NCBI GenBank assembly: GCA_947564525.1
Contig: CANOCK010000004.1
Location: forward strand, 1 to 43,348
Length of the DNA: 43,348 bases
Direction of reading: 5' to 3'
Source: an uncultured bacterium
GTDB taxonomy: Bacteria; Actinomycetota; Coriobacteriia; Coriobacteriales; Eggerthellaceae
Shown here in pieces: positions 27,948 to 41,004 of this stretch (positions are counted from its first letter, which is position 1; each line of letters starts with the position of its first letter). A program made the position numbers and the translations under genes. The notes under the pieces were generated by a model. That model saw only the letters and a list, made by a program, of their open reading frames with translations. It did no database searches and had not been told where the DNA came from.

Positions 27948-28127
27948 GCCAAGTTTGGCGAGCTTTGACATAAAGTGCAGGCATCCAGGGACCCGAAAAG
28001 CCAAGTTTTGGGCGATTCGACATAAGATTCTGGGTCTTGCGACGGGTTTTTATGGCAAACCGGCAAAAACTTGGCTTTTCGAGGCGCCACGGCATCTTCG
28101 AATATGTCAAAGCTCGCCAAACTTGGC
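27948..28127. repeat. 180-bp four-module palindromic element, copy 1
   Basis: Four modules of the type GCCAAGTTT...TTTGACATAA: forward at 27948 and 28000, reverse ending at 28075 and 28127. The outer pair is a perfect 25-bp inverted repeat; the inner pair has a perfect 16-bp core (27994-28009 with 28066-28081) and then diverges. Distances between equivalent edges are 52, 76 and 52 bp. Intervening sequences are not shared with the other copies beyond the CGAAAA in front of modules. Confidence 0.9.
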
Positions 28128-28159: not shown

Positions 28160-28225
28160 TGCGTCGAGGTGTGGTGCGAGAGGGGACGGTCGTGCGCCGA
28201 GATGCGGTGTGCGAAGGGACGGGCA
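28160..28225. repeat. Diverged 33-bp tandem repeat (2 units)
   Basis: Units 28160-28192 and 28193-28225 match at 25 of 33 positions. The 33-bp length keeps frame (11 codons), but no supported gene covers it. Confidence 0.5.
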
Positions 28226-28240
28226 TGCCCGTCCCTTCGC
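28211..28240. repeat. Perfect 30-bp palindrome
   Basis: GCGAAGGGACGGGCA is followed directly by its reverse complement, centred on GCATGC. There is no T-tract, so it is not a standard terminator; it may be a protein site or a cruciform. Confidence 0.6.
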
Positions 28241-28296
28241 GCGGGGCCGCCTTCCCTAGGATTGTCGTTGGGCCGGATGACGAGGAAGGAGACGGA

Positions 28297-28575
28297 ATGC
28301 CCGCGATGGAGAGCGTGCTGCAAGGCGACCCCGAGGCGGGCGAGGCCCTCGTCGCCCTGATGTCGGAGCGCGACGGGCTGCGCGAGTTCGGCGCACCGCC
28401 CTTTCTGTCTTTCCCTGGGCCGTCGAGGCTTCGGCTTGGCAAGGCTCCGCATCGTGAGGGGCCGTGCTTGCTGGGTGCCCTTTCTTGCCGATCGACGCTG
28501 CTCCCTTGGCAAAGGTCCCTTGGCTGCAGGCTCCGGATGGCGAGGCGCGGACGCTTGCGCTCGATTCGGCCTTAG
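28297..28575 (+). CDS. Possible short or decayed gene
   Basis: A 92-codon frame with a good AAGGAG five bases before the ATG. The first ~34 residues (MPAMESVLQGDPEAGEALVA...) have a gene-like composition, but the rest is Arg/Leu/Pro-rich and reads like non-coding sequence, so this may be a truncated or frameshifted remnant. Its TAG overlaps the stop codon of the convergent nuclease-like gene. I recognise no family. Confidence 0.3.
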   Translation: MPAMESVLQGDPEAGEALVALMSERDGLREFGAPPFLSFPGPSRLRLGKAPHREGPCLLGALSCRSTLLPWQRSLGCRLRMARRGRLRSIRP

Positions 28576-29775: not shown

Positions 29776-29955
29776 GCCAAGTTTGGCGAGCTTTGACATA
29801 TTCAAGGTTGTCTGGGTGCCTCGAAAAGTCAAGTTTTGGGCGATATGACATAAAAACGCGCATCAAGATTCAGATTCTTATGTCAAACCGGCAAAAACTT
29901 GGCTTCTCGACCCCTTGGCTGCTCCCACTTTATGTCAAAGCTCGCCAAACTTGGC
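29776..29955. repeat. 180-bp four-module palindromic element, copy 2
   Basis: Modules start at 29776 and 29828 (forward) and end at 29903 and 29955 (reverse), with 52/76/52 bp geometry. Outer arms extend to a perfect 31-bp inverted repeat (29770-29800 with 29931-29961). The inner arms (29821-29853, 29878-29910) match with several differences. Same module consensus as copy 1. Confidence 0.92.
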
Positions 29956-39426: not shown

Positions 39427-39735
39427 GTGTTCGATATGACCCAAAAGAGGAAGCGGTACGACAAGCAGTTCAAGATAGCGGCGGCGAAGGCCGTCTTGAG
39501 CGGCGAAGTGAGAGTCGTCGACCTTGCGAAAGGGCTGGACATCAAGGATTCGACGCTCAGACGTTGGGCACAAGAGTACGAGGAAATGGGAGGGGCGGCA
39601 TTCCCCGGCAACGGCAGCCCTAAGGTCAGCAAAGGCTACGAGATCGTGAAGCTCAGGAAAAAAGTCGAGGAGCTCGAATTCGAGAACGAAATGCTAAAAG
39701 AATTCCGGGCCTTCTTGAGCCAAGACCATGCGTGA
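39427..39735 (+). CDS. IS3-family transposase OrfA
   Basis: This 102-residue protein has the helix-turn-helix of IS3 OrfA (KRYDKQFKIAAAKAVLSGEVRVVDLAKGLDIKDSTLRRWAQEY) that binds the element's ends, followed by a leucine-zipper-like coiled coil (IVKLRKKVEELEFENEMLKEF) for dimerisation. Its TGA overlaps the GTG of orfB in GTGA. In-phase CTA-AAA-G (39694-39700) near its end is a candidate -1 frameshift site that would produce the OrfAB transposase; the orfB frame is open across this region. Confidence 0.92.
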   Translation: MFDMTQKRKRYDKQFKIAAAKAVLSGEVRVVDLAKGLDIKDSTLRRWAQEYEEMGGAAFPGNGSPKVSKGYEIVKLRKKVEELEFENEMLKEFRAFLSQDHA

Positions 39736-40598
39736 GATGCGAGTTCCTCAAGGCGCATAGGGGCGAGTTTAGCTCCATCAGGAAGGCATGCAAGGTCCTC
39801 GAGGTCTCGAGATCCGAATGCTATGGCTATATCAAGCGTAGGAAATCGAATGCCCAGATAGAGCGCGAGGCATTGGAGGGGTTCGTCGTGGAGAAGCTCG
39901 AGCTCCACAAGGGTCGCTACGGCCATCGCCGCATCAACCGCGAGCTCAGGAAAGACGGCATCGTGGTCAGCGAGAGGCGCGTGCTGAGCGTCATGCGGAA
40001 GTCGGGGCTCCAGGCCAAGGGCGCTACGAGGAGGCGCCGCAGGGCGAAGGCGGTCGAGATGGGAGGTCCGCGCGTCAACCTCGTCGACCGCATATTCGAG
40101 GTGGATGCGCGCAACCGCCTCTGGGTGGGCGACATCACATGCATCGACGCCTCGGAAGGCTGGCTCTACCTAGCCGCCGTCATAGACGCATGGCATCGCG
40201 AGGTCGTCGGCTGGTCGATGCCTGCGCGCATCACCGAGAAGCTTGCCGTAGACGCCCTTGATCAGGCAGTAGGCAGAGAGGATCCCCCTGCCGACTTCAG
40301 CCTCGTGTTCCACGATGACCAGGGTGCCCAGTGCACATCCCGTGCATTCCAGCGCTGCCTGGAATCCCATGGGATAGCCCAGTCGATGTCGAGGCCCGGC
40401 AGCCCATGGGACAACGCGCTCGCCGAATCCTTCTTCAAGACCCTGAAGCGAGAGCTGGTGAGGGGAAAAGAATACAAGACGAGAGATGAGGCAAGGCAGG
40501 ATATCTTCAAGTACATCGAGCTCTATTACGACAGGCAAAGGATGCATTCCAGTATTGGCTACAATGCCCCTTGCGACTTAGAGCGCGATGCGGCCTGA
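39732..40598 (+). CDS. IS3-family transposase OrfB (DDE integrase)
   Basis: This 288-residue part is the catalytic domain of the transposase. The N-terminal HTH_21 region (HKGRYGHRRINRELRK) is followed by the rve integrase core with the DDE residues in VGDITCID, FHDDQGAQ and NALAESFFKTLKREL, then the C-terminal YYDRQRMHSSIGY-P motif. It looks intact, so the element may be active. It starts with GTG overlapping the orfA stop, one frame back, and is probably made mainly as an OrfAB fusion by frameshifting. Confidence 0.94.
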   Translation: MRCEFLKAHRGEFSSIRKACKVLEVSRSECYGYIKRRKSNAQIEREALEGFVVEKLELHKGRYGHRRINRELRKDGIVVSERRVLSVMRKSGLQAKGATRRRRRAKAVEMGGPRVNLVDRIFEVDARNRLWVGDITCIDASEGWLYLAAVIDAWHREVVGWSMPARITEKLAVDALDQAVGREDPPADFSLVFHDDQGAQCTSRAFQRCLESHGIAQSMSRPGSPWDNALAESFFKTLKRELVRGKEYKTRDEARQDIFKYIELYYDRQRMHSSIGYNAPCDLERDAA

Positions 40599-40654: not shown

Positions 40655-40706
40655 CACGTGAGACGGGTGAGACGGGGTCGGGTGCTTCGTCTCAAACCGT
40701 CCTGCG
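40655..40706 (+). repeat. Direct repeat R1 with hairpin
   Basis: Contains tandem GTGAGACGG followed by GGTCGGGTGCTTCGTCTCAA and, less well conserved, CCTGCG. TGAGACG and CGTCTCA can pair in a 7-bp stem. A near-identical copy is R2 at 40950-41004. Confidence 0.75.
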
Positions 40707-40766: not shown

Positions 40767-40946
40767 GCCGAGTTCTGCCCGCTTTGACATAAGGGGAGCG
40801 CGGATGGGAGGCTGAGAGGCCAAGTTTGGCGAGCTTTGACATAAAAAGCTGCGCCGGGAGGGCCTGTGATATGTCGAATCGGGCGAAACTTGGCTTTTCG
40901 ACCCTCTTGGGTCGCTTGGCTTATGTCAAAGCGGACGAAACTTGGC
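40767..40946. repeat. 180-bp four-module palindromic element, copy 3
   Basis: Modules start at 40767 and 40819 (forward) and end at 40894 and 40946 (reverse), again 52/76/52 bp apart. This copy is more diverged: the outer arms match at 22 of 26 positions. The second module is the closest to the outer modules of copies 1 and 2. It lies between direct repeats R1 and R2. Confidence 0.88.
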
Positions 40947-40949
40947 TTT

Positions 40950-41004
40950 CACGTGAGACGGCACGTGAGACGGGGTCGGGTGCTTCGTCTCAAGTGGCCC
41001 TGCG
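40950..41004 (+). repeat. Direct repeat R2 with hairpin
   Basis: Same arrangement as R1: tandem CACGTGAGACGG, then GGTCGGGTGCTTCGTCTCAA, then CCTGCG after a short variable stretch. It starts four bases after the last module of copy 3. From 41005 to 41300 nothing else is visible. Confidence 0.75.

Follow-up and report, generated by a model that had tools for sequence, protein, structure and literature searches.

The window analysed here, the whole 43,348-nt stretch of DNA, carries three copies of a 180-bp element, each built of four 26-bp modules in the order forward, forward, reverse, reverse (++--) with start steps of 52/50/52. Copy 1 and all modules were located by a weight-matrix (PWM) scan, while copies 2 and 3 rest on the PWM scan together with a comparison with copy 1 and with a copy on contig C53, respectively. 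The features are as follows.

27948..28127, + strand: element copy 1, four modules, ++--
27948..27973, + strand: copy 1 module m1, GCCAAGTTTGGCGAGCTTTGACATAA
28000..28025, + strand: copy 1 module m2
28050..28075, - strand: copy 1 module m3
28102..28127, - strand: copy 1 module m4
29776..29955, - strand: element copy 2, four modules
29776..29801, + strand: copy 2 module 1
29828..29853, + strand: copy 2 module 2
29878..29903, - strand: copy 2 module 3
29930..29955, - strand: copy 2 module 4
40767..40946, + strand: element copy 3, four modules
40767..40792, + strand: copy 3 module m1
40819..40844, + strand: copy 3 module m2
40869..40894, - strand: copy 3 module m3
40921..40946, - strand: copy 3 module m4

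At a cut-off of 20 bits the weight matrix matched 12 modules in the window, whereas 60 shuffled windows yielded no match, and the window modules are therefore not due to chance. The original prediction of three copies with these coordinates, this order and this length was borne out by the PWM scan. A transposase gene with rve and HTH_21 domains (window 39732-40598) ends about 163 bp before copy 3.

The source genome assembly (1.93 Mb in 175 contigs, 86% complete) contains 74 modules at up to three mismatches, which form about 20 intergenic clusters. Nearly all of these keep the ++-- order and the steps of 52/50/52. Exceptions are a step of 51 bp in the copies on C1 and C30, a step of 59 in the C67 copy, resulting from a 7-base poly-C expansion, and steps of 52/40/51 in the C124 copy, the centre of which is shortened by 10 bp. 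The copies on C25 and C45 have five modules (++---), with one additional 52-bp unit, and those on C120 and C22 have three, with one unit absent. Recombination between modules explains these gains and losses of a single 52-bp unit.

Copies 1 and 2, one of them reversed, share 82% identity across 187 bp. Copy 3 belongs to the main subfamily and is about 82% identical to the C53 copy across 521 bp, and most copies in the source genome are 70-90% alike, spacers included. The family is dispersed in both orientations, and spacers are common to copies of either orientation. The original prediction had described the inter-module sequences as largely unrelated and had named beforehand their similarity between copies as the outcome that would count against it; such similarity is what the source genome shows, and the description was wrong. 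Since the spacers are related among copies, common descent suffices for the fixed spacing within the source genome, and we conclude that the spacing there is mostly a product of descent, with no selection needed. The further expectation of conserved spacing with varying spacers holds in part: the spacers do vary more than the modules (mean pairwise identity 0.59-0.73 and 0.84-0.89, respectively, in 12 canonical-length copies, with modules ahead in every segment), yet they are related. Gaps per substitution are rarer in spacers (0.012-0.025) than in shared flanks (0.055), and this low indel ratio gives a hint of constraint.

Several copies have 0.5-2.3 kb of flank in common, and some were duplicated jointly with a surface-protein gene. 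Large proteins with Listeria-Bacteroides repeats (PF09479) form a multi-copy family beside several elements (contigs C2, C29, C45, C52, C53 and C134; for example L074:1-4599), and these neighbours have up to 2.3 kb in common at about 75-92% identity. A further 250 bp downstream is shared by the copies on C1, C4 (copy 3), C30, C45, C53, C124 and C134. In C52 and C120, a 150-bp block from this stretch immediately precedes m1, which suggests mosaic rearrangement of intergenic blocks.

Outside the source genome, 137 further genomes from the family were searched, one of them from the other member of the genus, and none held a convincing copy of the module. When 397 genomes from the order were scanned with a 78-bp half-element profile, matches came from G217, which belongs to another family (E = 4.6e-6), and from G063, which belongs to another genus (E = 8e-4, a value that alone is insufficient for a scan of 397 genomes). 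Both loci proved to be multi-module, with modules 51-52 bp apart and inverted partners. Module searches returned 15 matches in G217 and 10 in G063, compared to 0-1 in the other searched genomes and in the reversed-pattern control, and a two-module pattern matched only the source genome and G217 among the 397, with zero control matches. The profile search of this genome and its relatives that the original prediction had proposed was thus productive on both counts, with about 20 genomic clusters and diverged elements in G217 and G063. One orthologous element is common to G006, G062 and G067; it lies downstream of an nrdD-like gene, in place of which a transposase-like insertion precedes it in G067 (both names read from the translation). 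As a negative control, 13 loci taken from weak single matches showed no module architecture. The strict module gave single chance matches in unrelated phyla when compared with GTDB 220. A viral element was also considered and rejected, as pattern scans of viral contigs yielded chance matches only.

In all three groups (source genome, G217 and genus g6) the module is an imperfect palindrome of 23-26 bp (GCCA...TGRCA), with a self-complementarity of 10.6/22, 9.7/22 and 14.0/24, compared to about 5.6-6.1 in shuffles. Inspection of the module consensus, GCCAAGTTTNNNNNNNTTTGACATAA, for a GTAG or CGTC end tag found neither. The TTATGTCAAA within the module resembles the XerD arm; a Xer/dif or tyrosine-recombinase site was rejected because modules of relatives lack TTATGTCAAA. 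A coding reading, invited by third-position-like variation in the modules and by an open frame (PSFARFDI, or MSKLAKLG on the opposite strand), was likewise rejected: the 52-bp step cannot be divided by 3, both strands carry modules, and no consistent codon periodicity is seen in the spacers.

All elements are intergenic, as judged with a simple codon-usage gene caller. The intervals in the source genome are convergent in 7 cases, tandem in 10 and divergent in none, and none of 13 further independent loci (G217 and genus g6) is divergent. Overall, divergent genes flank 0 of 30 loci and convergent genes 11; had one interval in four been divergent, finding no such locus would have a probability of about 2e-4, the true value being higher because six source-genome loci share a duplicated gene. 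Most elements outside the source genome lie 22-63 bp past a stop codon. The neighbouring genes are unrelated to each other and mostly housekeeping, with no common function.

The spacing of the modules differs between groups. Start steps are 51/33/51 and 40/34/40 in G217, and 32/30/32, 42/52, 52/42 and 41/30/43 in genus g6, while G063 also has the module orders +--- and +++-. Within an element the left and right arms match (52/52, 51/51, 43/43, 40/40, 34/32; equality P ~ 0.001). Distances between dyad centres cluster close to full turns of the helix (P ~ 0.007 against uniform; P = 0.058, above the 5% level, once the period is fitted), with R = 0.57 and a phase of 0.03 turn. The three groups contribute about 14 such distances, not all of them independent. 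Module centres are spaced near 3, 4 or 5 helical turns across groups with different modules. Selection on geometry, as originally predicted, is not needed in the source genome, where descent accounts for the spacing, but gains support from the relatives with their diverged modules, equal arms and near-whole-turn distances. Distant relatives show the four-module plan with blocks of other sequence, and this recurrence suggests that geometry matters beyond the source genome. Between the two models offered at the outset, protein sites on one DNA face are favoured by the whole-turn distances and the equal arms, with the reservation on the fitted period given above, while a nested RNA is disfavoured by weak covariation and by folds that are equally good on either strand.

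Tentatively, we consider it possible that these chromosomal elements form a new class within the Coriobacteriia that inherits its geometry, namely four palindromic putative protein sites 3, 4 or 5 whole helical turns apart in a mirror-symmetric arrangement, read by a co-evolving protein complex. If this is true, the module sequence would turn over between genera while the geometry persists. REP-type clusters are as a rule loosely spaced, and what they do is disputed. The co-moving arm lengths and near-whole-turn spacings, found across bacteria whose module sequences differ, allow a direct test of whether such repeats are kept together by a protein complex on duplex DNA or by a single-strand hairpin.

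We compared the element with known repeat classes, using the REP and BIME definitions of PMC2817692 and PMC3733652. Like REP/BIME, it consists of imperfect-palindrome units (20-40 bp there) that are extragenic and lie mostly behind gene ends, with a species-specific sequence and units in regular clusters (PMC2817692, PMC3733652); REPs also occupy tandem or convergent intervals (PMC3733652). Unlike REP/BIME, in which units alternate, it forms fixed mirror-symmetric tetrads (++--), its modules carry no GTAG or CGTC end tag, and no repeat-flanked RAYT gene was found in the 86% complete assembly. The family is also smaller (about 20 clusters and 74 modules, with 10-15 matches in G063/G217) than the more than 100 copies typical of REP/BIME, although REP families of 20-100 units or fewer exist as well (PMC3733652). 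With its palindromic units and its location the element works like REP/BIME, yet we do not file it as a member, as the other features differ. It looks like a new relative of these known repeats, and an unusually regular one. The earlier statement that no described element has this layout was overstated: the layout does differ, but REP/BIME is close in kind. From CRISPR, with its direct repeats, unique spacers and adjacent cas genes, the element is set apart by modules that invert midway and by spacers common to copies.

We propose, at a probability of about 0.5, that the element is a non-autonomous repeat of REP/BIME-like kind and that its modules serve as duplex protein sites, two-fold symmetric and on one helix face. 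The repeat probably represents a new REP/BIME-like class of Coriobacteriia and non-autonomous mobile DNA. The module would play the role of the REP unit, and four mirror-symmetric modules with centres near whole helical turns would constitute one element. Its copies would descend from a common ancestor, may have spread in both orientations as a non-autonomous element, and would persist mainly behind gene ends because they do least harm there. The modules may be conserved because a duplex-DNA-binding protein, which could be a nucleoid factor or the enzyme behind the spread, recognises them jointly on one helix face, presumably as a two-fold symmetric complex across the modules. The data establish the family and its copy number, symmetry, location and recurrence with diverged modules; mobility, this protein and any function for the host are what we infer. 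A search for a target-site duplication at the copies revealed no shared flanking direct repeat, the exact boundaries being uncertain, and modules lie beside neither of the two Y1-type transposase (Y1_Tnp) genes in the 86% complete assembly.

The strongest competing reading is a REPIN-like element, in which a single strand folds into a hairpin (m1 with m4, m2 with m3). The hairpin would be mobilised by an enzyme acting on single strands or, alternatively, would work at the RNA level, shielding or terminating transcripts at their 3' ends; we regard the two forms together as rather doubtful. REPINs likewise have inverted modules, a whole-element hairpin and dispersal in both orientations (PMC3116915), but they have two modules instead of four, and conservation of single-strand pairing is not clear-cut here, with weak covariation. 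All 16 full copies out-fold dinucleotide shuffles on both strands (z ~ -2.5 to -13), each strand giving a single hairpin that is long but imperfect. This folding is driven by the modules, whereas the spacers contribute little and are not complementary (P = 0.94-0.99). Both m1:m4 and m2:m3 pair slightly better within an element than between elements (P = 0.02-0.12), whereas m2:m4 does not; this lends weak support to a selected hairpin. In one G217 element the best partner of m1 is m3. Hairpin symmetry or quasi-palindrome correction could be the source of the equal arms, and the 3'-end position is that of transcribed REPs (PMC3733652). However, 2+3 and 2+1 module arrangements persist as well, and helical quantisation is not predicted by hairpins. 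An Rfam search of the window returned tRNA only, with no family match for the element. Intrinsic terminators were also rejected, as terminator-like sites around the copies are not above chance.

The element could also derive from a classical DDE transposon, as a MITE whose two ends, each bearing an outer and an inner site for the transposase, have come together without its gene. This origin seems unlikely to us, even though it would fit the ++-- order, the fixed spacing per end and the multiple copies in both orientations. MITEs and ERIC-type intergenic units (100-170 bp) are also short, non-coding, palindromic, intergenic and dispersed, but here neither a target-site duplication nor, among the module-bearing loci, a parent transposon was found, and the internal four-site phasing differs. 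Additionally, no longer copy with a transposase between the halves occurs among the module-bearing loci examined in this incomplete assembly, the rve-type gene before copy 3 is not enclosed by modules, and G063 has the orders +--- and +++-. The long common flanks and the spacing inherited within the genome could also mark neutral remnants of duplicated intergenic DNA that keep their geometry by descent alone; this we judge quite improbable, given that modules are conserved above spacers throughout and that other genera show this plan with modules that have diverged. Phased, palindromic sites might equally be operator clusters of a transcription factor, but a regulon is hard to reconcile with 0 of 30 loci being divergent, 11 being convergent and the neighbours being functionally unrelated, and we consider it very improbable. 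The REP/BIME-like duplex-site reading remains the one we prefer.

Other repeats were observed in this genome. A Y1_Tnp gene on contig C37 (1869-2198; L082) is RAYT-like (263 aa), and near it an unrelated GTGCAATTGG repeat occurs in three copies within about 30 bp. A 208-bp stretch with 94% identity is found at window 28188-28394 and at contig C1:22262-22470; it starts at a perfect palindrome, GAAGGGACGGGCATGCCCGTCCCTTC, and elements lie within about 1.5 kb at both places. A second repeat, GTGAGACGGGGTCGGGTGCTTCGTC(TCAC), is a hairpin with an 8-bp stem that is present in 33 genome copies and often adjoins the four-module element. It occurs on contigs C2, C3, C14, C19, C25, C29, C37, C53, C54, C63, C64, C67 and C163, and it stands on both sides of copy 3 (window 40667-40691 and 40965-40989).
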